This document shows, in pieces, positions 22,683 through 54,800 of a DNA stretch of 64,000 nt. The first letter of the stretch is position 1. The number at the start of each line of letters is the position of its first letter. The notes beneath the pieces were generated by a model. The model saw only the letters and a list, made by a program, of their open reading frames with translations. It had not been told where the DNA came from and did no database searches. Both the position numbers and the translations under genes were made by a program. Where the stretch lies: NCBI RefSeq assembly GCF_000330505.1, contig NW_004440189.1, positions 206,524 to 270,523 on the forward strand, written 5' to 3'. Origin of the DNA: Entamoeba invadens IP1. Its lineage: Eukaryota; Evosea; Mastigamoebida; Endamoebidae.

Positions 22683-24231
22683 AACTGGAAATATAAAGTC
22701 TGTACTCGATATAATTCTTTTTTGTGTGTTTTTTTTAATATTTTTTGGTAAAACGAATAATTAACAGAATAAAATACATTTAAAAAGAGAAAAACACAGA
22801 ACATAAAAAACTCATAAATTTTTTAAAAAAGATAAATAATTATTTTTTAGATGAAAATTTTAAAAGAGTGGAATTGAGTTTTAAAAAGTGGTAAAAAGTG
22901 GTTGAGTTTGGCAAATTGTCAAAGAACTTTTTTATTAAACAATGAAACCAGTAATGAGGACGCGAGAAAGTAAAATGTGTGATAAACTCCGTCATCAAAA
23001 ATTAAAAGACGCATGCACGGATTTGATTAATGGAATATCAATAACAAAAGTTTCAACTTCAAGACACCTTTCGAAAAGTACAGTTCATTCATTAAAAGTT
23101 AAGTTGAATGAAAATCCACAATTTATTCCAAAATTAACAAAAATGGGAAGACCACCAAAAATCACAAAGGACGCTATGAAAAACGTCGAAATGTCAACGA
23201 TAATCAATCCACAATCAAGTAGTCATAAAGTTGGGATGGAAATTGGTCTAAGTGCAACAACAGTTAATTCTATACGCCACGAATTAAAATTTCATTATGG
23301 AAAAGCGATCAAAAGACCATGTTTAACAGATAAACATATTGAATCACGATACACATTTTGTAGAAAACAGCTGTGGCAAAAGAATATTAATAAATGGACA
23401 AGTTGTGTCATTATCTCAGATGAAAGTCGTTTCTGTCTTCACTCCGATGGTATGATGATGTGGAAACCTTGGGGATATCACCCAGATACAATTTTTGAAT
23501 CGACTCCCAAATATGACCGCTCTGTAATGGTCTGGGGAGCAATTGCAAAGGATTTCAAAAGCAAACTTGTCTTCTGTTCCAACAGACTCGATTCAGCTAA
23601 ATATTTTGACATTCTAAAAGAATCGGGAGTTTTTGATGAAGCTGTTGAAAAGTGGGGACGAAAAAAATTTGTTTTTCAACAAGATGGAGCTCCTTGTCAT
23701 ACTTCAAAGACGACATTAACAAAACTACAGGGAATGGGCATCAAAGTACTTCAAAAATGGCCTGCTAACTCACCTGATCTAAGTCCCATAGAACATCTAT
23801 GGTCGATAATGGAAAAGAAAATAAGAGAAAAAACAAAAGTGTTTGAAAATGAACAAAAATTAAAAGAAGCTTTATTGCTTGTATGGGATGAAATCCCGAT
23901 ACAAACAATCAACAATTTGATTGAATCTATCCCCGAAAGATTTAAATTGTGTTTGAAATCAAAAGGTGGGTTTATTGGTGACAAACTTTAATTATTAAAG
24001 TTAATAAGGTTTGTCGTGTGGAACGTATAAAATTTGGGTAATTCAGCTTAACTGTTGCATAATTCCCACATTATTAGATGATTCTATTTTTGAATTGATT
24101 TTGGTTGTTATAAAAGTGTGTACTTCGAAATAAAAATTATGAAAAATAGATTTGAATCTTAATAAATATCGGGAAAATACTCTAAAATAAACAAATTGAT
24201 TAAAAATGGTACACACTTTTTATTTCCAGTT
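22683..24231 (+). mobile_element. Full-length Tc1/mariner transposon
   Basis: About 1549 bp bounded by inverted repeats of about 23 bp (AACTGGAAATATAAAGTCTG at left, two mismatches to the inverse of the right end) and flanked by TA at 22681-22682 and 24232-24233. It contains one uninterrupted transposase gene. A second copy of the subterminal word AAAGTGTGTAC lies inside the right end near 24115, a possible extra binding site. The right end is 25 bases from the stop of the broken kinase gene. Confidence 0.92.
22942..23991 (+). CDS. Mariner-family transposase
   Basis: 349 residues, normal length. The N-terminal third holds helix-turn-helix DNA-binding sequence and a GRPPK AT-hook-like linker. 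The catalytic core has SDESRFCLHSDG (first Asp), VFQQDGAPCHTS (second Asp) and NSPDLSPIEHLWSIMEKK (Glu); I count 35 residues between the second Asp and the Glu, so DD35E by hand. It cuts and pastes the element at TA sites. No stop or frameshift, so it may still be active or was until recently. About 260 bp of 5' and 240 bp of 3' element DNA flank it. Confidence 0.95.
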   Translation: MKPVMRTRESKMCDKLRHQKLKDACTDLINGISITKVSTSRHLSKSTVHSLKVKLNENPQFIPKLTKMGRPPKITKDAMKNVEMSTIINPQSSSHKVGMEIGLSATTVNSIRHELKFHYGKAIKRPCLTDKHIESRYTFCRKQLWQKNINKWTSCVIISDESRFCLHSDGMMMWKPWGYHPDTIFESTPKYDRSVMVWGAIAKDFKSKLVFCSNRLDSAKYFDILKESGVFDEAVEKWGRKKFVFQQDGAPCHTSKTTLTKLQGMGIKVLQKWPANSPDLSPIEHLWSIMEKKIREKTKVFENEQKLKEALLLVWDEIPIQTINNLIESIPERFKLCLKSKGGFIGDKL

Positions 24232-28706: not shown

Positions 28707-29077
28707 CATTTTTGGTTAGATTTTAAATATTTAACAAGTTGGAGCTTCCTTTTTTCTGTTTTATATGAATTTTATTAAAAAAGTGAACAAATTCTATTTA
28801 TTTTTTAACTTTCCAATTAATCTCCAAATCGGAAAGTGATTAGGAGATAGATGTGCCAAAAGTGCCAAATATTATGTTTATTTGTATACGTTCTAATTTT
28901 AAATTTACGAAAAAAATAAATTGAACAGATCAAAGCAAAGGAGAAAACCATTTTTTGTTGAACTTCAATCGAATATCACTTGATAAAAAGTGTTAATCGA
29001 GGTAGAATTCAATTGAAATCAACCGAAGTTCAACTTGATGGAATAAACAATTATGTTTGTAAATTGTATGTTGTTTA
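28707..29077. other. AT-rich spacer upstream of the TMK pseudogene
   Basis: AT-rich. TATTTAAA on the minus strand (28722-28729), the classic Entamoeba TATA-like word, sits just upstream of the pseudogene's first ATG, but this may be chance in such AT-rich DNA. Confidence 0.4.
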
Positions 29078-29206
29078 GGCTTCGCACCCGAGATTTTTAT
29101 TATCAAAAATTAGTATCGAAAAAGCTAAAATGGGTCAGTTTTTTTCCCGTGTTATTGGCTTTTTTATTAACTAATTTATAATAATACAATTCTCGGGTGC
29201 GAAGCC
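29078..29206. mobile_element. MITE family A, copy 1 (GGCTTCGCACCCGAGA ends)
   Basis: 129 bp. The ends GGCTTCGCACCCGAGA and its exact inverse are flanked by TA on each side. The interior folds back on itself (AAAATTAGTAT and its inverse). A second, similar copy lies at 60993-61127. Non-coding, Tc1/mariner-type by its TA flanks. Confidence 0.9.
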
Positions 29207-29424
29207 TAATGTTTTTATTGTTTTAATGTGAGTACTATACAACAACAAACCATGTAAAAGTTGTTGTATTGTTTAAAAATCTTAAATAACACATATAAAC
29301 AATCGCTGTTGTATGCAGTATCATAAGTTTATTATATATATATATCAAAACAAAAGAAATAAAGTAAAAAAACCAAAAAAGAAGATAAATTATTTTAAAT
29401 CATTACACAAAATATTAATAATTA

Positions 29425-29667
29425 CAGGGAGTATAAAAACCGCTTCCGTCTTTTTAACCGCTTCCTATTGATTTAATAGTTATAACTAATAACATTATAA
29501 TAAAAAGTATGATACAAATTACCACCTCAGACAGAAAAAGTCTCCACAAGGCATATTCAGCCTTCATGGTAAACAGTACTATACATTTTATTATATTAAT
29601 ATTATTTATAACTATTAGATCAATAGGAAGCGGTTAAAAAGACGGAAGCGGTTTTTTAGCCCCCCTG
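29425..29667. mobile_element. MITE family B, 243 bp fold-back
   Basis: It begins CAGGGAG and ends CCCCCTG, flanked by TA on each side. The terminal repeats extend about 80 bp with few mismatches and carry the word AACCGCTTCC twice in tandem at each end, again like repeated transposase sites. The unique centre is about 29515-29580. Non-coding. Confidence 0.88.
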
Positions 29668-29877: not shown

Positions 29878-30052
29878 AGTAGTATATAAATTATGTAGAT
29901 TTTATGCACACATTATTTTTATCTATATTTTCTAATAATTTAAAATAACGAGGGGACGAGTAATCTGAATTTTCACAAAATTCGGGATTAAGAGTTCCAA
30001 TTATTTTTTCATTTTTTTATTTCCCTAAAATGAACACTGATAAAGAACAATA
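29878..30052 (+). repeat. Polinton left terminal inverted repeat, 175 bp
   Basis: Identical base for base, by eye, to the reverse complement of 41910-42084. It includes a short palindrome GAATTTT-CAC-AAAATTC (29967-29983), the promoter, and the ATG plus first eight codons of the leftmost gene. Confidence 0.97.
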
Positions 30053-30368
30053 TATAAATTACAACACTATAACTGATACAGAATATATTAATATAACTAA
30101 AAATCAAATTTCTAAATTATATTTCGGTAAAGATGACTATTCTCAATATATTAAAGATATTATGAATTATGTTATAAAACAAGATTCTAATAGAAAACAT
30201 TATTTATTGAAAATTTATAAATCTGCCTTAGAATATTTATTCTTATTAATTAAATATCATGAATTTGATGAAAATGAAGATATATTAAATCATTTCTATA
30301 ATGAAGATTTCTATTATGATGAAAGACATAACGAAATTTATACTAAGAACTTTTTGAAGTATTATTAA
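30030..30368 (+). CDS. Polinton small protein, first eight residues shared with polymerase
   Basis: 112 residues, rich in Tyr, Asn, Asp and Lys, predicted helical; no family recognised. Its first eight residues (MNTDKEQY) and its whole upstream region are the terminal repeat, so it shares promoter and start with the DNA polymerase gene at the other end, after which the sequences diverge completely. It may be a real early protein, or a chance frame captured by the duplicated repeat. The frame is fully open and ends normally. Confidence 0.55.
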   Translation: MNTDKEQYINYNTITDTEYINITKNQISKLYFGKDDYSQYIKDIMNYVIKQDSNRKHYLLKIYKSALEYLFLLIKYHEFDENEDILNHFYNEDFYYDERHNEIYTKNFLKYY

Positions 30369-30406
30369 AATTATATAAATTCAATATTTTATTTTTCCCC
30401 TTTAAA

Positions 30407-30700
30407 ATGACTTCACTGGAAGAATTTGAAATTTTAAAAATTAATCCAAAATATTCAATAAATAGATTAGGACAAATTAAAAATAATAAGAAAAATAAAA
30501 TAATAAAAATTATGTTAAGACCAAGTTTAAAATATGATGCTTATGTTAATTTATCTGAAAACAAACATGTTATAAAACATTCTTTAAGAAGATTAGTTGC
30601 ACAACAATTTTTACCAGAATTTTCGAATATATGTACAGTTAAATTATTAAATTATGAAAATCCATTAGATTGTTCTATCAATAATTTAAAAATTATATAA
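30407..30700 (+). CDS. Polinton NUMOD4/HNH-like small protein
   Basis: 97 residues. The start (NPKYSINRLGQIKNNKK) matches the NUMOD4 DNA-binding motif of HNH homing endonucleases. The middle (HSLRRLVAQQFLPEF) and end (LDCSINNLKII) match the helix and closing strand of the associated HNH region. The expected catalytic His/Asn between them are not seen, so it is probably a DNA-binding remnant or repurposed regulator. Such modules are common passengers in large DNA viruses (established). The leader (ATTTTTCCCCTTTAAA) resembles those of other genes of the element. Confidence 0.6.
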   Translation: MTSLEEFEILKINPKYSINRLGQIKNNKKNKIIKIMLRPSLKYDAYVNLSENKHVIKHSLRRLVAQQFLPEFSNICTVKLLNYENPLDCSINNLKII

Positions 30701-30730
30701 ATATTTTATTTTTTTATTCCTTAAAAAGAT

Positions 30731-31030
30731 ATGACTACTCAACAACAACCAATTAATAAATTAGAACGTTTAACTACTTATGAAATATTTAGCATTAAAC
30801 AAATTAATACTAAATTTGGAAAATCATTTTTACTTATTGATAAAGATAATAATAAATATTTTGCAAATTCTAAGATATCTAAATTTATTCTAGAATCTAA
30901 AAATAAATCTAAAATAGATAAATTTGCTGGTGAAAAAAGATTATTTAAAATTAAAGTTAACGATTTTATTGAATATACTAATAAAGATGGCAATACTATT
31001 AAATTTTTAGAGATCGAAATATTACCTTAA
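30731..31030 (+). CDS. Polinton small beta-rich protein, possibly nucleic-acid binding
   Basis: 99 residues with alternating hydrophobic strands (FLLIDKDNNKYFANS, RLFKIKVNDFIEYT, IKFLEIEIL) and a Lys-rich helix between, a pattern that would fit an OB-like single-strand binding fold. This is inference from the strand pattern only; no motif proves it. It sits between the NUMOD4-like gene and the packaging ATPase, same strand, short spacing. Confidence 0.5.
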   Translation: MTTQQQPINKLERLTTYEIFSIKQINTKFGKSFLLIDKDNNKYFANSKISKFILESKNKSKIDKFAGEKRLFKIKVNDFIEYTNKDGNTIKFLEIEILP

Positions 31031-31067
31031 ATAAATATGAAAAATATGCTTATTATTTTTGTTAAAA

Positions 31068-31817
31068 ATGTCACTTAATCAATATGTAAATTCATTAATT
31101 AATCAATATGCTCCTGATAAATCAGAAACAACTATGAATATTATTCATCCAGAAGTTTTTGTAAAACATAGATCTATAAACCTATTAATAGGTAAACCTG
31201 GATGTTCTAAAACAACGTCTATTTGTAAAGAACTTATTAAAATAGATAAAGTTTCTAATAGTTTTCATCTTATTATTTGGGTTAATAATACAGGAAGTGA
31301 TCAAACTTTATTACATTATGAGGGTTTACTTAATATTCCAATTATTAAATTTACATATGATCAATTTGAAAAAGCTTATCCTAAATTCCTTGAAATTAAA
31401 GAAACTTATAATAAAATGATTAGAAAAGAAATACCTAAAGATGAATCTATATTAGAGTGTTTATATTTAGATAAATTTAGTGATAAACCATTAGAAACAA
31501 TTATTGTTTTAGATGATGCTGTTAATTGTTTAAAAAATGAATCATCAATATTATCTAAATCATTATATAAAACTAGGCACACCAATTGTTTATTCTTTAT
31601 AGCTATTCAAATATGGAGAGGTATACCAGCACAGATAAAATCAATACTATCTTCAGTATGGATATTTAATTCATTTTCTCCACAAATTCTACATCATATT
31701 TATAATCAAATTACTACTAATATCTCATTTGAAGAGTTTCAATCAGTTTATAATAAACTCGAAAAATATGAAAAAATTATATTTGATTCTATTACGAATG
31801 AAATAATTGTGGATTAG
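31068..31817 (+). CDS. Polinton A32/FtsK-HerA type DNA-packaging ATPase
   Basis: 249 residues from the ATG at 31068 (the frame extends upstream only through a TTG). Walker A is GKPGCSKTT at residues 42-50 and Walker B IIVLDDAV has its Asp pair at 149-150, followed by a KTRHTNCLFFIAIQ segment typical of the sensor strand. It is predicted to pump viral DNA into capsids, as in Polintons, virophages and poxviruses. Length and motif spacing are normal. Its 3' end overlaps the convergent 98-residue gene by 26 bases. Confidence 0.93.
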   Translation: MSLNQYVNSLINQYAPDKSETTMNIIHPEVFVKHRSINLLIGKPGCSKTTSICKELIKIDKVSNSFHLIIWVNNTGSDQTLLHYEGLLNIPIIKFTYDQFEKAYPKFLEIKETYNKMIRKEIPKDESILECLYLDKFSDKPLETIIVLDDAVNCLKNESSILSKSLYKTRHTNCLFFIAIQIWRGIPAQIKSILSSVWIFNSFSPQILHHIYNQITTNISFEEFQSVYNKLEKYEKIIFDSITNEIIVD

Positions 31818-32088
31818 ATTTAATAAAATCTCTAAATATATTTTCAAGAGTAGTTAATCTTTCTTCTATATTATTTTTAGTATCATTAGTATCTTCTATC
31901 TTATTTGGATATAATATTATTTTTCCATCTCTTCTTCCTATTTTATAACCATTAATTTTATATCTCAAATTCAATGATTTAGTTTTAATTTCATCGATTT
32001 CTTTCTTGTTTTTATCATAATATTTAAGAAATTCTGATTCATTATCAAATGATTTTGCATCATCTGATTGTAATTTATAAACACTCAT
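31792..32088 (-). CDS. Polinton small protein with C-terminal coiled coil
   Basis: 98 residues, charged. The N-terminal half is helical; then comes a short beta hairpin (INGYKIGRRDGKIILYP) and a C-terminal amphipathic helix (NIEERLTTLENIFRDFIK) that could oligomerise. Family not recognised. First of three small minus-strand genes next to the capsid gene, a position where virion proteins are usual in Polintons (inference). Confidence 0.6.
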   Translation of the reverse strand: MSVYKLQSDDAKSFDNESEFLKYYDKNKKEIDEIKTKSLNLRYKINGYKIGRRDGKIILYPNKIEDTNDTKNNIEERLTTLENIFRDFIKSNPQLFHS

Positions 32089-32148
32089 TTCTTATGATAA
32101 AAATATAAATTATCTAATATGAATTTAATTAATGTTTCATGTCTAATC

Positions 32149-32466
32149 TTAAAACCATTTAAAACTCTTCTTATCTTTATCACTACGTTGAGTATTCATT
32201 AATTGATCAACAAATTTATTAGAATAAGAAGTTGTATCTTGTACATTAACTTTTTTATTAGTTTTGTATTGTTCTATTAAGTCACTACTAAAATCTAACA
32301 TCTTATTTCCTATACCAGACGTGTCATATGCTTCTATTAAATTTTTAGCATATGGTTTTATAGGTTTTATAACATTATCATTAAACCATACAGCTGCTTT
32401 TCCTATTTTAGGAATGAAATCCTTAACTTTCTTTAATTTTTGCCAGAATAAAGGGCTTTTTACCAT
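32149..32466 (-). CDS. Polinton small amphipathic virion-like protein 1
   Basis: 105 residues. Basic N-terminus (FWQKLKKVKDFIPKIGKAAV) forming an amphipathic helix, followed by a second helix and a polar Ser/Thr/Lys tail. The layout recalls the membrane-active minor capsid proteins found in Polintons and adenoviruses, but similarity is only in general character. Adjacent to a second protein of the same kind. Confidence 0.5.
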   Translation of the reverse strand: MVKSPLFWQKLKKVKDFIPKIGKAAVWFNDNVIKPIKPYAKNLIEAYDTSGIGNKMLDFSSDLIEQYKTNKKVNVQDTTSYSNKFVDQLMNTQRSDKDKKSFKWF

Positions 32467-32523
32467 TTAAGATATAATAAAAAATTAATTATCAATATTG
32501 AAAATATATTTATAACTAAAATT

Positions 32524-32820
32524 TTACTTGATCCATATATTTTTGATATCATTATGACCAAAGTTACTTAACGATTTAAGAGGATCTGATCCTTTACTAA
32601 CATCAATCATTCTTTCACCAAATTTAGAATATGTTTGAAATTTTTTATCAGCAATATTACCAATCATAGGCCCAACAACCGGTACAGAATTTATTATTGG
32701 TTTAGCTATATTTGTAACTTTTGACATAATATTTCCATATGTCTTTAATACATGTCCACCTTTATTTAACATATTATTTGCAAAATTTTTTAGTGTTTTA
32801 TAAAATCCAGGATGTCTCAT
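32524..32820 (-). CDS. Polinton small amphipathic virion-like protein 2
   Basis: 98 residues. A basic amphipathic helix (FYKTLKNFANNMLNKGG) leads to a hydrophobic Pro/Gly-containing stretch (AKPIINSVPVVGPMIGNIAD), suggestive of membrane interaction, then a polar tail. It is divergently transcribed from the candidate capsid gene across only 37 bases, so the two likely share one promoter and timing. The minor-capsid role is inference. Confidence 0.5.
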   Translation of the reverse strand: MRHPGFYKTLKNFANNMLNKGGHVLKTYGNIMSKVTNIAKPIINSVPVVGPMIGNIADKKFQTYSKFGERMIDVSKGSDPLKSLSNFGHNDIKNIWIK

Positions 32821-32857
32821 TTCATATTTATAAAATTCATATTTTTACTCTTAATAA

Positions 32858-34487
32858 ATGTCTAACATAAGAATTCCTTCAGTTTTAGAAGATGCTAATA
32901 GGGGTGATATCCTAAAATATTTTGATGAACAACAAAAAATAATTACTGCAAATGATGGTGTACATGATGCAAGAATGATAACTGTAAATGCTTATCAACA
33001 ACAAGTTCCATTTAAATCTTCAGCTCATTCTAAGATTCAAATTACAGATCCATCTTTTCATGTAACTAACATTGATAAATCATATTTATCTGCAACAATA
33101 AAGTTATTACTTAAATTAATTCCAGAAACTACAAAGACTCCAACCGATACTATTGAAAAAGAATCAAATGCAGCTCAAGTATTTGTTGGATTAAAAGATT
33201 CAACACAATGGTTAGATAGTCTTAAAATTAATTGGAAAAATGGTTCTACTTATTATGAAAACACTAAGATGATTTATGAAACAACTATTGCTGCAAATTG
33301 TAGAACTCAACAAGAAAAATTATCAAGACCAAGTGTTTATTCAACTTAGGAATCTGCTTGGAAACATCAAAGTAATGTATGTGGATGTTTTGTTAAACTT
33401 GATGATCTTATTAGAAATACATCATTTGAGGTAGAAATGAAAATAATTATTCCTTTAGATAATTTCTTACCATTACAATCTTTTACTAGTTATCCAAATG
33501 CTATATTTAATGAATTTGAACTTGATATTAAGCAAAGAATTACTCAAAACTTTGTATTCTGTCAAGTTGATCCAGATGTGTTAATAACTGAATATAATGA
33601 GAATCATAACTCAGATTCTCAAATTACAATGTTAGCTGCTTTCAAGAAAGGCTTAACTAAAGAATTTACTCAATGTGGTGATAAGGCAATGATGTTATGT
33701 TATTGTAAAGTTGATTCTACTTCAACATTTAGTCAATTTGATGGTACAATTCAAGTTATGGAATCTACTTGTACATTATTTCAATCTGTTATTAATGGAT
33801 TTAATGTTAAGGATTCAGTTTTAAGAGAATTATATGATAGATATAGTAAACAACCATTATATGTTCCAGCTCAAATAACAACTGAATATGATTTTCCACC
33901 AAATCAAACACCATCTAAGATTAATTGTTCAAATATGATGTCATATTTAAATACTAGTATGTTATTCTTCTTATTCCCAAGAACATCTAATCAATGTACC
34001 GTATCTAAGAATCCACATATTTCTGATATTAAGGTTATAACTGCTAATAGAACTATTCCTGATCAACAAATGGATTCATTAAGTAGTGAATTTGTTGAAT
34101 TCCAAGTTGCAAATACTAATTTTGATACATTATTCGCATCACCTAAATCATTTATTAATTCACTTACTTTTAATGAATATGATTCATCTTTATTAAATAA
34201 ACGAAAAAAAATATTTAGAAGATGCTACTGATTTTATGATGTCAATTCCTTTAGAAAGATATGGATCTGGATGTTTCTTTGATGGTATATATAGTACTTC
34301 GAATATTCAATTAACATTACAAGCAACACCTATGTATGGAATAGATAATCCATATATCAAACCAGATGGTAGTAATTTAAATACTAATGCAATTAATATT
34401 ATTTTATTAAATGATGCTATGTGGTCTTTAACACCAAATAAAGTTGAATTACTCACTAATGTTGATTTAGATACTATGTTCAAGTAA
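32858..34487 (+). pseudogene. Polinton candidate major capsid protein gene, broken twice
   Basis: About 543 codons when both breaks are ignored, a fitting length for a double-jelly-roll capsid protein. The reading is interrupted by an in-frame TAG at 33347-33349; coding resumes in the same frame without loss. A second break lies in a run of eight A at 34204-34211, after which the coding frame is shifted by one base until 34487. The protein is beta-rich with many Thr/Asn/Gln and conserved-looking IPLDNFLPL and MMSIPLERYGSG segments. Position beside the packaging ATPase and small virion-like proteins supports the capsid call; I see no decisive motif, so a penton or other structural role is possible. 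Whether the breaks are decay, sequencing error or recoding is open. Confidence 0.6.
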
Positions 34488-34600
34488 ACTATATTGAATT
34501 GTATATTTATATTTTTAGTAATAAAGAAGTATAAGCATTTATTTTTAGTAATAAATGGAACAACTTCTAAAGAAGTTTAAACATTTTTTATTTATAAAAA

Positions 34601-35488
34601 ATGGAAGTATTTTCAACAGCTTATCAAGATAAAAGTAAAAATAGTGTTTTTTGCACATCATATTTTAATCCTTCTACAATAACATCAAATGAAATTAAAA
34701 CTGATAAAATTACAAGCATAGATGGAACAGTAAGTATAAATACAAAAGATATTTCTTCTACTGATTATGTAAATTCTGAAATATTAACATATTATAATAA
34801 ATCTAAAAGTTATAGTGATAATGTAGCATTAGTATGTAATACATATTCAGATATGATTGCCTCATCATGTAATGCGTACAGCGACAATGTTGGTTCTAAT
34901 TGTAATGCGTACACAGATACAAAAATAGCTTCAATACCAACTCCAAAAATAATATATCCATATCCACATATAATTTCCCAAGACACAACAACATATAAAA
35001 ATGTTACTTATTCTATTAAATCAGAAACTGATAAAACTGCATATTTTAGAATAAAAATTGATAATGTTACAGAATTCTTAACAACAAATAGAATAGTAAA
35101 AGTAGTTCCATATGTAATTATTAATAATGAAATTTATAAAGTTATTGAACAAGTTAGTGGTGGAAGTATGTTGAATGGAAAAATATATACAACAGTACAA
35201 AATCTATTTAATATAAATGAGCATCCAATAATAATAATACCAGATACAGTTGGTTATTTATGGGGTGATGGATATTATTGTTTTAATTATTTCAGTTTAT
35301 ATTTACCAAAGAATTTTACATCAAATAGTAATTTATCATCAATAACAACTAAACCAATATGTGTTTATTTATATTGTAATCTTAATAATTTATTTTATCC
35401 TGGTATTAGTTATTCAGGAAGTAATCCAAATTTAATGTGGAGTAATATAAATATATATAATAATGGAATATATCTAATAGAACCAAAT
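34601..35488 (+). CDS. Polinton fibre/spike-like protein, 3' end lost in gap
   Basis: At least 296 residues before the assembly gap. Near residues 65-110 are 11-residue repeats built on (C)NAYSDNVGSN/CNTYSDMIASS, like the trimeric stalk of viral and phage fibres. The rest is beta-rich with many aromatic residues (GYLWGDGYYCFNYFSLYL), fitting a receptor-binding head. No signal peptide. The role is inferred from this stalk-plus-head architecture and from its location after the capsid gene. Just upstream, the sequence TTTATTTTTAGTAATAAA occurs twice (about 34508-34555), perhaps a duplicated promoter. Confidence 0.6.
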
Positions 35489-35588
35489 NNNNNNNNNNNN
35501 NNNNNNNNNNNNNNNNNNNNNNNNNNNNNNNNNNNNNNNNNNNNNNNNNNNNNNNNNNNNNNNNNNNNNNNNNNNNNNNNNNNNNNNN
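35489..35588. other. Assembly gap (100 N)
   Basis: One hundred N, the conventional size for a gap of unknown length. Genes on both sides read into it from opposite directions, so unseen genes may lie between them. Confidence 0.99.
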
Positions 35589-36453
35589 TGATATTTGGAA
35601 TATTAGATTTTAAATTATCTATCAATTGTTTATATTCTTCATAACCTCCAGCAAAAGATGATGAAATACCTTTCATTATTTGTTTAAATATTTCTGTATT
35701 ATCTTCACTATTAATAATTCCAGGTAATAATGAAGACATTAATTGATCAGTAATTTTTTTATACCAATTATCACTTTTTATGAAATTTAATTTTACTTTA
35801 AATACTGGTGATAATATATTTTCTCCAAAAAGTATTGAATTAATTACATTTCCAATTACTTGACTACCTAATGAAATATATTCAGGATTTAAAATTTTAG
35901 ATAAATATTCTCTAATTTTATAATCTACAGTATTAAGTGATTTTGAAAATCCACTACCTTGGCCAACTCTTGCATATCCATCAATATTTTCATTTACTGG
36001 TAATAATCCTAGATAATTTAAATAAGGAACTTCTTTTCTTTGATATTTATTATATTGATCATAATATTTCTTTTGGTATGGTCTTTGTGAATTACCTGGT
36101 TTTGAAACATAAAATTCATTAAAAGCTTTAATATGATTTGTACTGTCTACTCCAATATAATCATCTATTTGATCTCCATCCAAATCATACTTATAAGGAA
36201 TTAAATTATTATTGGAACAATAAACACGAAAAGCTTTTGGATCTAAATGTTCTTTATTGTATTTTAATTGATATTTATCAGTAGCAAGATCTGTTCCACC
36301 TAAATTTAGATATTTAGAACTTACTCCAGCTGGTTCCATAGTTGAAAAATCGATAACATCTTGATTATCATATCCCTTTTTAATTCCAAAACCATCAATT
36401 TTTGGTGCTAATTTTGTTACGCCATATCCTTTGTCATAAAATTCTTTACTCAT
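35589..36453 (-). CDS. Polinton unknown protein, 3' end lost in gap
   Basis: At least 287 residues from the ATG at 36453 to the gap. It contains YDLDGDQIDDYIGVD (about residues 88-102), a calcium-loop-like DxDGDxxDD motif as in EF-hand or FG-GAP repeats, next to conserved-looking aromatic segments (KYYDQYNKYQRKEVPYLNYL). The later part is helical with hydrophobic stretches (GSQVIGNVINSILFG). I do not recognise the family. By position it is most likely structural. Confidence 0.6.
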
Positions 36454-36491
36454 TTATTATGAAAAAAATTAAAAATTTGAAGTCAAATAAT

Positions 36492-38123
36492 TTATAAATC
36501 ATGTATTCTAGAAGTCTTTTCTAATAAATATCTAGATACAATTTTAGTTTCGTAATTATCATTATCTTCATTATAAATTTCATAATTATTTCCATATGGA
36601 AAGGAAATTTTCCAATTTTTAGAATCAATATAATTATTATTTTTTCTTAAATTTCCATCTTCAACATCAAATAAAATAACATCTTCTTCATTGATAAAAT
36701 TATATTTTGAATTTTTTAATTTATTTCTTATTTTTTGATTATAATGTTGACAATATGATATAATTATTCTCTCTAACATTTTATCATTTTGTACCATTTT
36801 AGGTGTTATGTAACTAGGATCAATATAATAAAAATTATATATTTTACCACATTCTTGAAATATTTTTACTAAACCATCATGACAACTATCATTATAATAT
36901 TGCATTAATTTATATACTTCTTCTGTTGTTGGAACTGGTGTTATACGTTTTGGATCTCCTTCATTAAATAATTTACGTATTTTAGTCATGTATTGAAGTA
37001 ATTCTTTTCGTTTCATGTTTTGAAATGATATAGAATTAATAATATTTTTATATTCATCATCATTTAAAATATAATATTTGACATATAAATCTCTAATAGT
37101 TCTACATAATCTATCAATAGGAGCTGTAGAAGTATGAATTTTTGTTGCTGTAACAAATAATTTAATGTTCTTAGAATTAATATAATCAGCAAAATCATTT
37201 GATGATATACCTCGTTCTCCATCAAATATTAAATTTGTCATTTTTAATCCTTGTTTAAATAATTCTTCAAAACCATTTATAATTGATGATGCAGTTTTAT
37301 CTTTAATAGAAATAACATACCCATATCTTGTATTCACATTTATACCTATTAGGTATGATTGTAATGGATTATTTTTATGAACTCTGTGATCAAAATTTAT
37401 TTTTACAGATGGTTTATCATATTTTTGTTGAGTTACTCTCTTATCTTTATCAGAGAAATACAATATATCAAACATATAAGTATTTGGTATTGCAACAAAT
37501 TTATAAGCAAAATTTTTATTATAAAATGAATATTTAGGTGGAGATGGTTTAAAATTATTAGCATAAATTATATCTTTGTTATTGAAATAAGTATATATAT
37601 TTTTAGCTAATGATGGAACATGTTGATTCATGTCTACATTAAATAATTGTTTTATTGTTCTATCTTTCTTAAAATAATTAGTTGGTGGATAAGTAGCTAT
37701 GGTAGTGGTTGTACCATGTGGTTGAATTGACGAGAAACTCACGCCGAAGGCTGACGGTTGAGGTCTTAATTCAGCATTTAATTGAATTTCTGGTGTTTGT
37801 TTAATTTCTTTAACTTCTGGTTTAGGTGTATTTGCATCTTTTTTAAATTCATGTGAACCAGTAGCTTCTAGCATTTTAGATATACTTGCATTTATACTTC
37901 GTTTATTATTAATGTATATATCATATATATCATCTAATAATTTTTGTGTTCTATTATTACTAATATTAAAATAATTATAAATACCAGAATAAAAATTTTT
38001 TAAATTGTGTTTTGAGTTAGTATTAGGATTAATCCCATATAATTTATCTCTATTATTATATGCATATTCTATTTTATTTTTATAAGTATTATAAAATTTA
38101 GATAATTCTTGTTCCTTTGACAT
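36492..38123 (-). CDS. Polinton retroviral-type integrase (RVE)
   Basis: 543 residues. The RNase-H-like core starts near residue 205. Acidic residues are D219 (YMFDILYF), D301 (LIFDGERG) and, 35 residues further on, D337 in PIDRLCRTIRDLY, the place where the catalytic Glu normally stands (usually V/I-E-R-x-x-R-T). The N-terminal 200 residues are Lys/Asn/Tyr-rich with a Pro/Gln/Thr linker, and the C-terminal 200 residues form the non-catalytic DNA/target-binding part. It would cut and join the element ends to target DNA. It starts 37 bases before the polymerase gene's end on its 3' side and ends close to the unknown structural gene. Confidence 0.9.
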   Translation of the reverse strand: MSKEQELSKFYNTYKNKIEYAYNNRDKLYGINPNTNSKHNLKNFYSGIYNYFNISNNRTQKLLDDIYDIYINNKRSINASISKMLEATGSHEFKKDANTPKPEVKEIKQTPEIQLNAELRPQPSAFGVSFSSIQPHGTTTTIATYPPTNYFKKDRTIKQLFNVDMNQHVPSLAKNIYTYFNNKDIIYANNFKPSPPKYSFYNKNFAYKFVAIPNTYMFDILYFSDKDKRVTQQKYDKPSVKINFDHRVHKNNPLQSYLIGINVNTRYGYVISIKDKTASSIINGFEELFKQGLKMTNLIFDGERGISSNDFADYINSKNIKLFVTATKIHTSTAPIDRLCRTIRDLYVKYYILNDDEYKNIINSISFQNMKRKELLQYMTKIRKLFNEGDPKRITPVPTTEEVYKLMQYYNDSCHDGLVKIFQECGKIYNFYYIDPSYITPKMVQNDKMLERIIISYCQHYNQKIRNKLKNSKYNFINEEDVILFDVEDGNLRKNNNYIDSKNWKISFPYGNNYEIYNEDNDNYETKIVSRYLLEKTSRIHDL

Positions 38124-38134
38124 TTATATTTTTT

Positions 38135-41100
38135 TTAAAATGAACCCAAATCAGTATTAAATTTAATATTTCTACAGAATTGAGATCTTGATTTAATTTT
38201 AAAATCTTTAGTAAATTCAAATGATGGTCTAAGTTGTAAAAGATTAAAATTAAACGATTCTCCATCATATAGTTTCTTATATAATTCTAACGGATCTTCA
38301 TATTGACAATTTAATAAATTATTAGGTATACCTTTTAATCTAAGATGATATTCTATTTCATTATTTTCATTAGTTAATTTATCACAATAAGCTTTCTTAC
38401 CTAAGAAGTAAGATTCAATACTAGTAACATCACCAGATAATTCATCAAAATCTGGATGGAATTGACCCATATCAGAACCTCTAAGTACTCTATTATATTT
38501 CTTATAATATTCATCTTCTAATTCGTTAATTCTTGATTTTAAAATATGCATAGAATCAGTATCTTGATAATAAATTGGAATATTGAGATCTTCTGCTAAA
38601 CACATAACTTCATTCATAATTCGTTTTGACATAGTAAGAGTTTGAACACCAATAAGATTTGGTACAAAGAAATCATCAAAACTTTTATTACATTCAAAAC
38701 ATCTAATATTTTCAGCAACATCATAAAATGATTTAACTAATAACGAATTCTTTCTTAAATATCTATCAGCATCATACTGAATATCTCCTTTCTTATTTTT
38801 AACAGATATTTGTTTATATACAAGATCAGATTTAATGGGTTTTTGAATAGTTTTACCATATGATGAATTCATAATTAATTTAAATACTTCTTGAACTGGA
38901 TTACCTTGTTTCTTAAAATCTCTTCTTAAATTATATAATTTAGCCATCTCATTTGATAATAAATCAGACTTATTACCAGTCCAATAATAACCTCTAATTA
39001 TTTTATATTCAATCTGTTGGAATTTAATAAGATCTTCTAATAATATATTATCAACTCTCATAACACAAGGTTCATTAGTATTATGATTACCAGTTTTATC
39101 TTTTTTAACAATTAATGGGAAATGTAATTTCTTATTTACTTTAGTAATATCAATATCAACAATAAAAGCAGAAATAAATTTACTTTCAGTAGGTTCTAAT
39201 TGTTGTTCATCCATAAGGTGATTAAGTAAATAATCATTAATTAACATATTTTCAGGAATAACAATTGGAGAACCGGTTGCTAATTTTAATCTATTAATAG
39301 CTGAAGGATATAATGAACAAGCATCATAATCATATAATTCATCATTTACATACCACTTTTTATTATCTCTAGTCATACATCTACCTCCATAAATAGCTCC
39401 TTGAATAAATTCTCTAACTTTTCCTCCATATTCTTTTAAATTATTTATTTTTGAATATACGTTATGCTTAAAGTAAGTATTAGCTAAAGAAGCTGCTGAA
39501 ATTACTTTATCGACATCAATATTTAAATATTCTAAACACATATCTCTAAATTTGGAATGACCTTGTTTTAAGATTCTAACATCTTGATTACAATAGAATA
39601 CACAATAAGCTTTCATATTGAAATGATATTCATCCGTTCTACAATTATCAATAGAATCAATATTCTCAACAAATAATTTAAATTGATCTTCATTCCATTG
39701 TTGTATTTCGTATAAATCAGCTTCTAATATATTTCCAATATTAGTTTCAACACGTTCTTGATTGTACGACGTTTCACGTCTGAGGCCCCCTGGTCCGTAA
39801 TAATTATAAGGATAGATCTCTTTTTGAATATTAGATAAGCCAAACATCTTTGGAAAAGAGGCTAAACTAGTTGAAATTAAAGCATAAGAATCTTTAAAAG
39901 TTAATTGTTTACCTTGAAATTTAAGAGTCATTTGCATGATTTTACCTGATTTTTTAATACATCTATTAACACCATATTTAGCAAGGAATGAACCATCATA
40001 TTTAAGATTATGAAAATAACAAACAGCATTATGAGGTAAATCACATAAGAAATCATAAGCACAATCTTTTCCATATTTATTATAAATCTTATCTTCGCCT
40101 CTTTTAGAATAACAAACACAATATGGATTATGATATCCTTGTGTTGAAGCTTCAAAATCAGCATACCAATAAGAATGATCTACTTCTTTTCGTTTATTTT
40201 CTTTGATTTCAATTTTTCTTGTTTCAAAAGGAAGATATTCAAGTGTATTTAATGATTGTAATACATATTCAGATAAATCCGATTTTAAATGAAAAACATC
40301 AGAAAGAGAATAAGGTTCAAATCCATTATGATCTCTAATATAAAGAATTAGATCAGATAGCTTAATAGTAGTTTTAGCACATGAATTAGTTAAATATGAA
40401 TTTCTTACCTTTCTTTGTTTATCAAACATATTATCAATACTTAAATTATTTTCTAAAGCATATTTATTCATTTCTTCTCTGTTTTTAAGATAGAATGGAG
40501 TAATAGGAATATCAATATTCAAAATATAATGATCGCCTTTCATTAAAGAATCTCTATATAAAAACATTTCTAAATTATATTTAGCATCTTTAAGTTCACA
40601 ACCATAATAATCTATTTTTCTATTCTTATGTTTGTTTGATTTATCAGTATTCTCTCTATCAATTCTAATTCTAATATGAACCGATTTACATAATTCATCT
40701 AACATTTTAGCTTTCTGATAACGACCTCTACAATGAATTAATACTAATTCTAAAGTTTCATCATCGACATTAGCTTGTTTTAAAGCATAAGTGAAACAAT
40801 TTAAATCAAATTCTGATCTAACCTTTCCATTTTCATCAATCAATGAACTGAATATTTGTGCTTTAGCAAGATATTGACCAAATATTTCAAATTCTGGTTT
40901 ATAACGATAAGGGAAAAAGCTTCCGCCAGTAGTTTTATATTCTTTCACATCATCTTCTTCATAATGATATGCAGATATTTGCAATTCTAATATGAATAAT
41001 GGTTCAGGAATAGTTTGTTGAACATAAAAAGTAGAATCTATAGAATCATTTACTTCTTGTTTATTGATAAAACACATGGATTCTTCAGAAACAGAATTAA

Positions 41101-41932
41101 GAAATTCATCAATGGCGTCTTTAGTATTTAGCATATAAGATTTCCATCCATCTTGACTAAGAAAATATTTATAAATTATTTCAGTAGTAGAAGGAACTAA
41201 TTTAATTAAATCGTTAAAATACTCTCTCACTAATTGAATTCTTTTTAATTTTTCTCTAAAACCACATCTAAAATCTGCTTTAATTATTTTATTAACTCTA
41301 TCATAAGTTACTTTAGTGTTAATTTCCGTATGATCTTCAATTTCTTCAATCATATCTTTATATTCTTCCATATTGTTTTCATATTGTTCTTTTTCTTTCA
41401 ATTCTTTAAAATAATTCTTCCTTTCATCGTTAATTCTTAATTCTTCTTCAAATTTTTTATACATATCTTCTCGCATTAAATCATCATTATCTTCAATATT
41501 ATCAAAAGAAATATTATTTAAACTCCATTCTAAATTCTTTTTGTCAAGTTCTTTTTGAATTTTTTCTTCATCTAAATCTTTGATTAATGTTGCTTTTTTA
41601 TTAATTAAACCAAAAGTTTGTTTATCGGTTTTGTTTAATTTATTGAAAACTTTTGATAAAAATGGTTGTTCTAATTTAATAGTACTTTTCTTGTTATCTT
41701 CCATTCTTTTTAATTGAGCTTCCAATTTTGCTTTGTAATGAAAATATAAATCTCTTGTTTCAATGTCCATAGCAATTAATTCTTTTCTACATTCTTTATT
41801 ATTTATTTTAGTAGAAGCAGCCTTAATAGTTCCAGCTTTAATTGTGAAACAGTTTAAAATATCTTCTTCAGAATAAGTATTAGTAAAATTATAGAAATTT
41901 TTAATTCTGTATTGTTCTTTATCAGTGTTCAT
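38135..41932 (-). CDS. Polinton protein-primed DNA polymerase B
   Basis: 1265 residues. Proofreading exonuclease motifs: DFEA at 592-595, HNLKYDGSF and YCNQDVRIL. Polymerase motifs: A, DACSLYPSAI (Asp 870); B, KLIMNSSYGK (Asn 1022); C, YYQDTDS (Asp 1124 and 1126); then KKAYC. The two insertions of protein-primed enzymes are expected between A and B. The N-terminal ~560 residues include a charged coiled coil and then a conserved region with NCFTYAL (Cys 379) and DHYIL (His 468), spacing like a papain/OTU-fold protease. That region could be the primer protein domain or a protease (inference). Uninterrupted. The start and first eight codons are inside the terminal repeat. Confidence 0.96.
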   Translation of the reverse strand: MNTDKEQYRIKNFYNFTNTYSEEDILNCFTIKAGTIKAASTKINNKECRKELIAMDIETRDLYFHYKAKLEAQLKRMEDNKKSTIKLEQPFLSKVFNKLNKTDKQTFGLINKKATLIKDLDEEKIQKELDKKNLEWSLNNISFDNIEDNDDLMREDMYKKFEEELRINDERKNYFKELKEKEQYENNMEEYKDMIEEIEDHTEINTKVTYDRVNKIIKADFRCGFREKLKRIQLVREYFNDLIKLVPSTTEIIYKYFLSQDGWKSYMLNTKDAIDEFLNSVSEESMCFINKQEVNDSIDSTFYVQQTIPEPLFILELQISAYHYEEDDVKEYKTTGGSFFPYRYKPEFEIFGQYLAKAQIFSSLIDENGKVRSEFDLNCFTYALKQANVDDETLELVLIHCRGRYQKAKMLDELCKSVHIRIRIDRENTDKSNKHKNRKIDYYGCELKDAKYNLEMFLYRDSLMKGDHYILNIDIPITPFYLKNREEMNKYALENNLSIDNMFDKQRKVRNSYLTNSCAKTTIKLSDLILYIRDHNGFEPYSLSDVFHLKSDLSEYVLQSLNTLEYLPFETRKIEIKENKRKEVDHSYWYADFEASTQGYHNPYCVCYSKRGEDKIYNKYGKDCAYDFLCDLPHNAVCYFHNLKYDGSFLAKYGVNRCIKKSGKIMQMTLKFQGKQLTFKDSYALISTSLASFPKMFGLSNIQKEIYPYNYYGPGGLRRETSYNQERVETNIGNILEADLYEIQQWNEDQFKLFVENIDSIDNCRTDEYHFNMKAYCVFYCNQDVRILKQGHSKFRDMCLEYLNIDVDKVISAASLANTYFKHNVYSKINNLKEYGGKVREFIQGAIYGGRCMTRDNKKWYVNDELYDYDACSLYPSAINRLKLATGSPIVIPENMLINDYLLNHLMDEQQLEPTESKFISAFIVDIDITKVNKKLHFPLIVKKDKTGNHNTNEPCVMRVDNILLEDLIKFQQIEYKIIRGYYWTGNKSDLLSNEMAKLYNLRRDFKKQGNPVQEVFKLIMNSSYGKTIQKPIKSDLVYKQISVKNKKGDIQYDADRYLRKNSLLVKSFYDVAENIRCFECNKSFDDFFVPNLIGVQTLTMSKRIMNEVMCLAEDLNIPIYYQDTDSMHILKSRINELEDEYYKKYNRVLRGSDMGQFHPDFDELSGDVTSIESYFLGKKAYCDKLTNENNEIEYHLRLKGIPNNLLNCQYEDPLELYKKLYDGESFNFNLLQLRPSFEFTKDFKIKSRSQFCRNIKFNTDLGSF

Positions 41933-42084
41933 TTTAGGGAAATAAAAAAATGAAAAAATAATTGGAACTCTTAATCCCGAATTTTGTGAAAATTCAGATT
42001 ACTCGTCCCCTCGTTATTTTAAATTATTAGAAAATATAGATAAAAATAATGTGTGCATAAAATCTACATAATTTATATACTACT
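41910..42084 (-). repeat. Polinton right terminal inverted repeat, 175 bp
   Basis: Exact inverse of 29878-30052 as far as I can read. It holds the promoter and first eight codons of the polymerase gene. The outer end is ...ATACTACT, giving the CT-3' terminus expected of Polintons. Confidence 0.97.
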
Positions 42085-51803: not shown

Positions 51804-54800
51804 TTAGTAAGAGTTCTCTTGAACCTTCTTTAAGTCGTGAACAACTTCGTCGATGGTAAACCGGTCAGCAGAACAATGTTCCCATGAGTTTGAAATGATG
51901 TTATAAAGCTGCTTTGACATGTTAGCGGGTTGTTCAAGACGGCGGCCGACACACACGAACTTGGAGATGGACCATGGGTACTTGTACTCTGAGACCGGGA
52001 AAGGCTCTTTCATTGTTGCAATTGCGTACATTGTTACCGCAAAAGCATAGACATCTGTCTTCGATGTATATTTCTGTCCTGTAATGATTTCTGGCGCTAT
52101 GTAAGTTGGACGCTCTTTGACTTCAGTTCTGTGGTTCCAGAACTTCATGTAAGTGTCTTGATACCCAAAATCAGTCAGTTTCACAATTGAAACATCATTC
52201 ACGTCGGTGCTCATTAACATCACATTGGCAGGCTTTATGTTATAATGAAGGAAATTTTTTGCGTGTAACACAGCTATACCCTTTGCTGCATCAAGTAGCA
52301 CTCTGCACCTCATTGATAACGCCATTTCCTTTCCTGCACTAATGAAGTCTTGCAAAGTGCCGAATGTCGCGAATTCGGTTACTATCAAATGTGTTTTGTC
52401 TAGCAACACCTTTCCAATGAGTTTTGTAAGGTAACTGCTTTGTGGGAAATTTTCTAAGATATTGAGTGGCTCGTCGTAGATTTTCTTTTCATCGGACTTG
52501 AAGTCAAAAGACCGTATGTTACGCACCACTACACTTTGATTGTTGTAATTCGCTTTGCTGACAGTGATCTTATAATTGGACCTCATGTTCGTCTCAATGT
52601 TAATTAAGTGTGGATCGATGAAGAGTGAATCGACGGTGTTTGCGCTGAGTTTGAACGACAATTCTTCCTTAAGTTGGTTATCGACAAATACTCTCACTTT
52701 GAATGCATTCTGGATTGTGAAGGAGCAGTTTGGATATATCAACACTCTCTCACTGATGCACATCCCACTCTTCAATAAGCAACTGTGTGGTTCAAAGTCC
52801 ACTCTGTATCTCTCGTCCTTGTCAATAACAAACTGCAACTCAACTTCGTCACTTCCTTTATTACCAATGTAGAACCGCTTCATATATTCTTTGTTCAACT
52901 CCATTTTTTCTTGGAACTCAATCAAGGTTGCTTCGCTGACAATTTGTTCCATAGTTGGATATGGCATTAAAGCAACATCACAGTGCTTCAAAGGGAATAC
53001 ACGGCTAGCTCTTGTTTCTTCCAATTGTTTGCTTCTGTATTGGTAATACACATAAAGCATAATACAAAGAACAATTAAGAGTGCGATGAATATCGCAATG
53101 GCTATTATAATAAGAGCAACACCATAACCAAGGGGATATTTTTCACAACGTTGTCTGTTATAACTCAGCGCATACCAGTCATCACATTCGTCGCAATACC
53201 CATCAATTGCACGTTTACAATGTTCAATAGTATCATACTTGACACACCCATCCAATGTCATCACATAATCTTTTCCACACGAAGTGCACTTCTTTGACGT
53301 TTTGTTGCACGACATACACCCAACTAAAAATTCGTTGCATGTGTGACAATTGCCGGCATCCAAGTAATATCCACTCGTACAGTTCAAACAGCCTTCCGGA
53401 GAGTAAGTGGCACAAAAATTGATTGAAGCTTCTTCACTATCCAAGCAAGATGTGCCATTTAAGTAATACCCTTCTGCACAACTTGAGCATGTAGTTGATG
53501 AAACACACGTGGCACACTTGGTATTACACTGTTGACACCTTCCATTGAAAGCATAATACCCATATTCGCAGTGAATACAGACAGACTTGTATATATTATC
53601 ACAATGTTCAAGAGTTAATGGCTCGCACGTTTTGCTTTGAAAATTGTAAGTGTATTTGTCGTCACATAAACTGCACGAAGATCCATCACTGCACAAATTG
53701 CAATTATCAATACACTTTCTGCACTCATTACCAGATGAATAATATTGACTTGAACATCTCTGACATATACCAAACAAGTACAACTCACATATATCACTCG
53801 TCTCTCTTTTAATAAGAGCTGTTGTCTTGGGAGCCTCACACGTCTTTTTATCCGTTGAAACCACATCCTGTTGATTCACACACTTCATGCAAACACCGAA
53901 AAATGTCGCGCCATTACACGAGTCATCAACGGGTTTACACTGTCCGTCAGCGTCATCGTAATACATTTTTGTTGACCCACTCTCCTCAGCGCAATTCAAG
54001 CATTTGAAATTTGAAACTGTTTTGCAATTGGTGTTGGTGCAAATTCCATTCAATAATATCTGGGAACTGTTTTTGCATTCGTAACATGTCACTCCAGAAC
54101 ATTTGGCACATGACGCTTCACATGTGGAACACTTTCCCGAACCGATTGAATATCCATTTTCACAACTCATAGCCCCTTTGTTTGAGACAGAAGATGCTCC
54201 AACTGACTGCGAACAACTTTGTTTTGCTTCATCTTCACGAGTGTATTTATCGGAAATTGTACACACAGGGCACTTCTCTTCTGTAGAAAGTGTGTAACAC
54301 GTATCGCATGAAGCACTACAACTTTCAGTGCACGACTGAAAAGTCCCATCTGTCATTTTCTTCCCGGGACATTTCCTACAAATTCCACCAGAATAATAAT
54401 CACATGAATCAGCCTCTGTAATTCTTGTGCATGTTGTTCCAGATAACTTACTCCCAGCATTACAAAGAATACATTCAGTGTTACTACTACATTTTGTACA
54501 CAAATTCCCACACGCTTCACATCGTTGGTTATTCAGTGTCGTTCCAACTAAATAAAATCCATCAGCACACGATGTGCAATGTCCAGAAGAAGCCGTAGTA
54601 GCACAATTAACAACAGCCGCTCTATTATCACATTTTCCATTGGAATTTGCAATGATGTCACCACATATCATACAAGTGGCAGCTTCTTTAAAGCGCATTG
54701 TTGTGCAGTACGCTTTATCACTTGCAACCACTTTTGCTACAAGTTGTGACCCTTTTAATGTACTTCCAGTTTTGAGTCCTCCCGCGTCAAAAGCAATTGC

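Follow-up and report, generated by a model that had tools for sequence, protein, structure and literature searches.

Polintons (Mavericks) are already known from Entamoeba invadens, with an element of 16,504 bp (Kapitonov and Jurka 2006, as cited in the accessible part of PMC3511435). According to the portions available of the respective papers, target site duplications measure 6 bp in vertebrate Mavericks (PMC8097293), 5 to 6 bp in Mavirus and Polintons, and mostly 3 to 5 bp in the virophages of Cafeteria; one of the latter, EMALE02, has been interpreted as a capsid-module exchange, and module exchange is known from virophages (PMC8547959). Whether Polintons form virions is a long-standing question. 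Here, we report an element at positions 29878 to 42084 of a 64,000-nucleotide stretch of E. invadens IP1 (contig NW_004440189.1; hereafter, the window), which is probably a Polinton/Maverick-lineage provirus (family A) that inserted recently, has since become capsid-defective, and has exchanged a cassette of presumed virion genes with a second lineage (family B).

The element was 12,207 bp long as assembled, including 100 N (G+C content, 23.4%, versus 36.1% in the flanks). Further copies, which the original prediction proposed to look for, were sought in the 35-Mb genome assembly of 233 contigs; copies of both families were found and are named by contig (C8, C28, and so on). An inverted-repeat search of the window paired 29878-30064 with 41898-42084 at 97%. 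The outer 175 bp (Table 1) were 100% identical, as first claimed, and the 12 positions that follow inward contained 5 mismatches, so the repeat length of 175 bp is exact; identity over this length is far beyond chance. The ends, AGTAGT and ACTACT, are the Maverick motif given in the accessible text of PMC8097293, and long terminal inverted repeats with AGT-type ends are a Polinton/Maverick trait. The first open reading frame (ORF), o1, and the polymerase gene have their start codons at the same place in the two repeats, position 153, and both proteins therefore begin MNTDKEQY. Repeats within a copy were identical in all three copies compared directly (window, 175 bp; C28, 304 bp; C204, 416 bp). 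Repeats of other copies matched the window repeat mostly at 70 to 88% (one 46-bp stretch, 96%). In C59, the two ends matched the window repeat at 82% and 79%, so identical repeats are not universal. Of the recent insertion or ongoing repeat conversion that had been proposed, the repeats would fit a young insertion, with homogenization at element replication and slow decay thereafter; repeat conversion in place may be an alternative.

Exact 4-bp duplications were found in four of six countable family A pairs (window, CAAA; C28, TCAT; C59, ACAA; C30, ATAA), and 3 of 4 bases agreed in C201 (ACTG/ATTG). Only pairs in which both ends carried AGTAGTAT were counted; this excluded C213 and C132, whose second end does not carry it, as well as C9 (ends AGAAGTAT, flanks inverted). 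Since one exact 4-bp match has a chance of 0.007 at the local base composition, at least four in six would arise by chance with a probability of about 4e-8. The original prediction was right that the flanks share CAAA and lack a clear 6-bp duplication; because family A generates 4 bp, however, CAAA is itself the target site duplication. A 6-bp duplication was rejected for family A on the same four of six pairs. In family B, a 6-bp duplication was found in one of two copies (C93, ATTATC), and the other (C109) had none. Past the element ends of C9 (G000:C9:16124-19673; 25 bp read) and C109 (49392-65600; 7 to 8 bp), the flanks were mutually inverted copies and not direct duplications.

The ORFs of the DNA polymerase (pPolB), the integrase, and the presumed packaging ATPase (1,265, 543, and 249 amino acids [aa]) were all uninterrupted, as had been predicted. 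The polymerase matched Pfam family PF03175 (Table 1); a PDB search with it alone gave no match at an E value of ≤0.01. Its closest named relative was EIN_417710 of E. invadens IP1 (91%), to which the C186 copy was 97.5% identical across the first 515 residues. The next 18 relatives (P0002 to P0019; 53 to 64%) came from metagenome assemblies, with longest contigs of 3.9 to 14.8 kb (7 of 18 at 13.4 to 14.8 kb, none longer). The longest contig was 14,564 bp for both polymerase P0009 and integrase P0126, which probably lie on one and the same contig. Such contigs hint at free genomes of about 14 to 15 kb without proving them. Searches of IMG/VR with the polymerase, the ATPase, the integrase, and alignment A6 found no relatives; alignment A5 retrieved two distant loci (37% and 32%), and genome contigs yielded seven distant polymerase loci (32 to 38%). 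Further polymerase lineages, mostly with stops and 37 to 69% identical to the window by piece, were seen on C23, C213, C63, C65, C148, C119, C153, C212, C179, and C104. The ATPase alone matched Pox_A32 weakly (under the cut-off; Table 1), and its family B homolog matched Zot at 4.1e-4 with a score equal to the cut-off.

Three acids of the integrase (D219, D301, and D337) were invariant in all 22 aligned proteins (window, E. invadens IP1, two family B copies, and 18 metagenome proteins; P0138, of 123 aa, was omitted from alignment A7). The last two are 35 residues apart (D-D-35-D), and the third is D where retroviral integrases carry E. The closest named relative was EIN_259600 of E. invadens IP1 (97% over 78% of the query), and the anaerobic amoeba that had been proposed as host is supported by both named relatives. 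The integrase alone had no Pfam match; four of seven scanned relatives matched PF00665 (rve) at 7.9e-6 to 0.0058, under the cut-off. The best PDB match of the integrase profile was weak (E value, 0.14), to the integrase core of human T-cell leukemia virus type 2 (HTLV-2), with D337 opposite the E of LVER, which we take to be catalytic; a PDB search with integrase alignment A1 gave nothing related. The structure model (mean predicted local distance difference test score [pLDDT], 55.8; blocks of 72 to 93 over residues 251-320 and 63 to 74 over 321-350) placed D219 within a strand, D301 where a strand ends, and D337 within a helix. Relatives, profile, and modeled strand and helix order together support a retroviral-type (rve) integrase, as in Polintons/Mavericks. 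With pPolB, this integrase, the AGTAGT ends, and the presumed packaging ATPase, the predicted Polinton lineage is supported. Because no protease was found and neither the duplication length nor the size is the usual one (15 to 20 kb for Polintons in the accessible part of PMC3511435, versus 12,207 bp as assembled), we regard the element as a divergent member of the Polinton lineage rather than a canonical Polinton.

Family B, whose ends read AGTAGTTATAG, surfaced through searches with the integrase, the ATPase, and the capsid piece. Two copies ran from end to end, C93:262668-279063 (16,396 bp) and C109:49392-65600 (16,209 bp), and a polymerase fragment adjoined the family B copy in C6. Judged by length and host only, family B is probably the 16,504-bp Polinton. 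Window and family B were 30 to 32% identical in the integrase (aa), 34 to 41% in the ATPase, and, composite C11 excepted, 24 to 33% in gene X; backbones were assigned to A or B from the polymerase, integrase, gene X, and ATPase. The composite itself (C11:68854-82758) combined a family A polymerase and integrase with a family B integrase and end; its fibre-like gene was 93 to 95% identical to that of the window, and no capsid match was among the matches listed. Two short copies carried perfect repeats, C28:112088-113192 (1.1 kb) and C204:76840-79174 (2.3 kb). C28, an internally deleted copy, has the ends of family A, retains portions of o1, o5, and o6, and is flanked by a 4-bp duplication of its own. 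Both short copies likely moved in trans.

A and B had in common a single block with sharp edges, which includes the genes for the presumed capsid and the fibre-like protein. Strong DNA similarity to family B starts at 32520; to the left, identity was 38 to 58% in most 60-base steps and 73 to 80% at 32360-32480. On the right, similarity ends before gene X. Within the block, o7 was 83 to 88% identical to the six family B copies used, the fibre-like gene was 88 to 97% identical by piece to C93, C15, C40, C109, and C6, and nucleotide identity reached 98% (C93, 143 bp). In C8, C83, and C136, the block continues through the stretch equivalent to the window's gap, taking in the last part of the fibre-like gene plus one more small ORF (83 to 96% to family B copies). 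The 100 N would probably hide about 0.84 kb, for a full family A length of about 12.9 kb. Such a block might be a mobile unit inserted into both families, as its sharp edges could suggest; however, family A copies carry it at equivalent positions, flanked by genes of the same kinds, it has no recognized transposase, and none of the pairs listed by the inverted-repeat search had an arm at 32520 (in the window, the right edge falls in unread sequence). We consider a mobile unit very unlikely.

Presumed capsid genes fell into two types. With the window piece as the query, C37, C15, and C93 (all B) were 91 to 95% identical, and C8, C136, C40, C109, and C6 were 62 to 78% by piece. With the C40 piece, C8 was 94%, C136 was 86 and 91%, C6 was 89 and 91%, and C109 was 82 and 91%, versus 75 to 80% for the window, C37, C15, and C93. 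Type 1 therefore occurs on A (window) and B (C37, C15, and C93), and type 2 on A (C8 and C136) and B (C40, C109, and C6); since capsid types and backbones occur in all four combinations, a tree without exchange does not account for them. This four-way table used 9 of 16 places. The seven left out were C134:937k, which scored in between (85% and 84%) and has a B backbone according to its integrase; the decayed C35; C66 and C175, to which no backbone was assigned; and the fragments C134:428k, C6:12-280, and C151. Synonymous distances of o7 from the window agree with exchange (C15 [B], 0.185; C136 [A], 0.363; C109 [B], 0.524), and in trees of two block stretches, A and B copies were interleaved (C8 and C83 with C15, support 0.978; C136 with C11, 0.817). 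The right edge of the block falls in the gap of the window copy, as an assembly chimera would have it. Against this, the left edge lies in gap-free sequence, C8, C83, and C136 have the same order of gene X and block over gap-free sequence, and capsid types are mixed in C8 and C136 as well; we rejected a chimera, to which we attach almost no probability, as the source of the mosaic.

Gene conversion between integrated chromosomal copies, in place of recombination between co-replicating or co-infecting genomes, is an alternative origin of the exchange, possible though not, in our judgment, probable. Many A and B copies reside within one genome, the shared block is the sole part similar enough in DNA for homologous pairing, and the fibre-like gene and the capsid types are unlinked. 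Two distinct capsid types kept on both backbones and a constrained capsid core speak for recombination between genomes, although both are compatible with conversion too.

For the capsid piece (window versus C40, one pair), the ratio of nonsynonymous to synonymous substitution rates (dN/dS) was 0.08, 0.17, and 0.23 in three stretches and 0.84 over residues 45-103. It was 0.19 and 0.43 for the ATPase, 0.32 for the N-terminal part of the polymerase, and 0.29 for its C-terminal part versus the C63 lineage. On these ratios, the capsid core, ATPase, and polymerase appear to be under purifying selection, and the fast-changing stretch of the presumed capsid may form part of the particle surface. The capsid identity is presumed from the place and size of the gene, which in the window is broken by an in-frame stop and a frameshift (Table 1); these may be sequencing errors, but with a broken capsid gene the window copy would need helpers. 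The element had been called near-complete, a description limited by the broken capsid gene, the gap, and the failure to find a protease. The exchange with family B had escaped the original prediction.

Several observations weigh against a provirus with an exchanged virion cassette. No homolog of the capsid piece was found among 230 candidate public proteins at an E value of ≤0.001, nor a credible PDB match, and its structure model (pLDDT, 29.6) was not used. No adenovirus-type protease was matched in the scanned window ORFs (the gap is unread). Constraint was weak in the fibre-like gene (dN/dS, 0.80 versus C8; 1.69 versus C15, from 8 changes), o3 (0.68), and gene X (0.79 between two family B copies). 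The fibre-like gene was 67% identical to that of decayed C37, save one 95% stretch, and 73% to that of C136, with many stops; it does not track the capsid types, so exchange seems to cut within the block too. One C109 capsid piece was just 82% identical to C40, and tree support was strong for a single exchange grouping (0.978; the rest, 0.12 to 0.92). C83 carries E at the first triad position of the integrase, C204 lacks a duplication, and family A duplications (4 bp) differ from the typical Polinton/Maverick 5 to 6 bp. Virophage-type capsid and penton genes were not matched in searches of public proteins, PDB, and PHROGs, and the PHROGs search gave nothing usable. Genome-wide, 0 of 21 PF02902 matches fell in mapped A or B copies (PF00770 was not searched genome-wide).

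A dead transposon lineage without a virion stage, in which the presumed capsid gene has another role, would account for the broken capsid gene, the missing protease and capsid matches, and the many decayed copies. It is harder to reconcile with purifying selection on the capsid core, ATPase, and polymerase, with young repeats, and with metagenome relatives on contigs of up to 14.8 kb, and we think it unlikely.

For the provirus that we favor, the following cycle is proposed. The two terminal genes begin within the repeats and point inwards, and the repeats would hold the promoter. The linear genome would be copied by protein-primed synthesis, keeping the repeats alike, and the integrase would insert the element with a 4-bp stagger. 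The observed mosaic would reflect recombination in which families A and B swapped a cassette (o7, the presumed capsid gene, the fibre-like gene, and a small ORF, all presumed to serve the virion), probably at least twice and perhaps during co-replication or co-infection; internally deleted copies with the same ends would be mobilized in trans. More speculatively, and with somewhat less than even confidence, the two lineages could form a single capsid gene pool, co-replicating or packaging together and trading the virion cassette like reassorting viruses, with a fast presumed surface stretch, a D-D-D integrase, and, in family A, a 4-bp stagger. A cassette moving between very different backbones, with a constrained core beside a variable stretch, is the trace expected from co-infecting viruses, and a shared capsid gene pool, if true, would be genetic evidence for a Polinton virion stage. 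A clear biochemical test comes from the group of D-D-35-D integrases and from the stagger of 4 bp. E. invadens is a cultured laboratory model (see also PMC4053983) in which free DNA, particles, and transcripts can be sought.

Table 1. Features of the family A element and its borders (window positions)
Feature	Position	Strand	Evidence or remark
Left target site duplication, CAAA	29874..29877		Flank comparison
Left terminal inverted repeat, AGTAGT end	29878..30052	+	Identical to right repeat
o1, 112 aa, start codon within repeat	30030..30368	+	ORF; copies in C28, C136
o2, 97 aa	30407..30700	+	ORF; 98-99% in C136, C62
o3, 99 aa	30731..31030	+	ORF
Presumed packaging ATPase, 249 aa, P-loop GKPGCSKTT	31068..31817	+	Pox_A32 0.0063, under cut-off
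o5, 98 aa	31792..32088	-	ORF
o6, 105 aa	32149..32466	-	ORF
A/B shared block, portion left of gap	32520..35488		Sharp left edge; right part seen in C8, C83, C136
o7, 98 aa, first shared-block gene	32524..32820	-	ORF
Presumed major capsid gene, broken	32858..34487	+	Stop at 33347, frameshift near 34.2 kb; identity presumed from place and size
Variable stretch within presumed capsid gene	33569..33745	+	dN/dS 0.84, one pair
Fibre-like gene, 296 aa as far as gap	34601..35488	+	ORF
Assembly gap, 100 N	35489..35588		Equals 0.83-0.84 kb in C8, C83, C136
Gene X, ~288 aa to gap	35589..36453	-	ORF
Integrase, 543 aa, D219, D301, D337 (D-D-35-D)	36492..38123	-	Support via relatives
pPolB, 1265 aa	38135..41932	-	PF03175 1.3e-42
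Right terminal inverted repeat, ACTACT end	41910..42084	-	Identical to left repeat
Right target site duplication, CAAA	42085..42088		Flank comparison

Just to the left of the element lie two short hairpin-like elements, one at 29435-29656 (90-nucleotide arms, 88%; framed by TA next to CAGGG/CCCTG, resembling a small mariner-type derivative) and the other at 29075-29209 (49-nucleotide arms, 84%). A tRNA scan found none. Elsewhere, the window holds a Tc1/mariner-like transposase ORF (22942-23991; PF13358, 3.6e-12), a lysine- and alanine-rich ORF of 904 aa (11261-13975) opposed on the other strand by an open frame of 508 aa, probably a composition effect, and a cysteine-rich ORF of 1,971 aa with a kinase-like end (51804-57719), which presumably resembles the transmembrane kinases of Entamoeba.

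Among the matches listed in our searches of the literature (Entamoeba Polintons/Mavericks, endogenous viral elements, and Polinton modules), no title dealt, for Entamoeba, with an exchange of this kind, with duplications of 4 bp, or with a D-D-D integrase, and none of the "DD35D" titles listed concerned Polintons. As far as the accessible text of each source goes, family A shares its host group, pPolB, integrase, and ATPase with the 16,504-bp E. invadens Polinton (PMC3511435) but is about 12.9 kb long, with a 4-bp duplication and no protease found. Vertebrate Mavericks (PMC8097293) likewise have AGTAGT...ACTACT ends, inverted repeats, pPolB, integrase, and ATPase; they differ in their 6-bp duplications and in their protease, which was not found in family A. 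Ginger1 transposons (PMC2836005) share the retroviral-type integrase and the 4-bp duplication, but they are cut-and-paste elements with CCGG or CCGT targets and TGT ends, whereas family A has AGTAGT ends and AT-rich duplications. Rumen virophages (PMC4409740) are likewise linear, with terminal inverted repeats and a Polinton-type pPolB, but have no detectable integrase and carry a virophage-type capsid and protease. The EMALE endogenous virophages of Cafeteria (PMC8547959) are similar in their short, mostly 3- to 5-bp duplications; in these virophages, the module may be replaced by distant capsid genes, whereas here homologous capsid types shift between two Polinton-lineage backbones in all four combinations.

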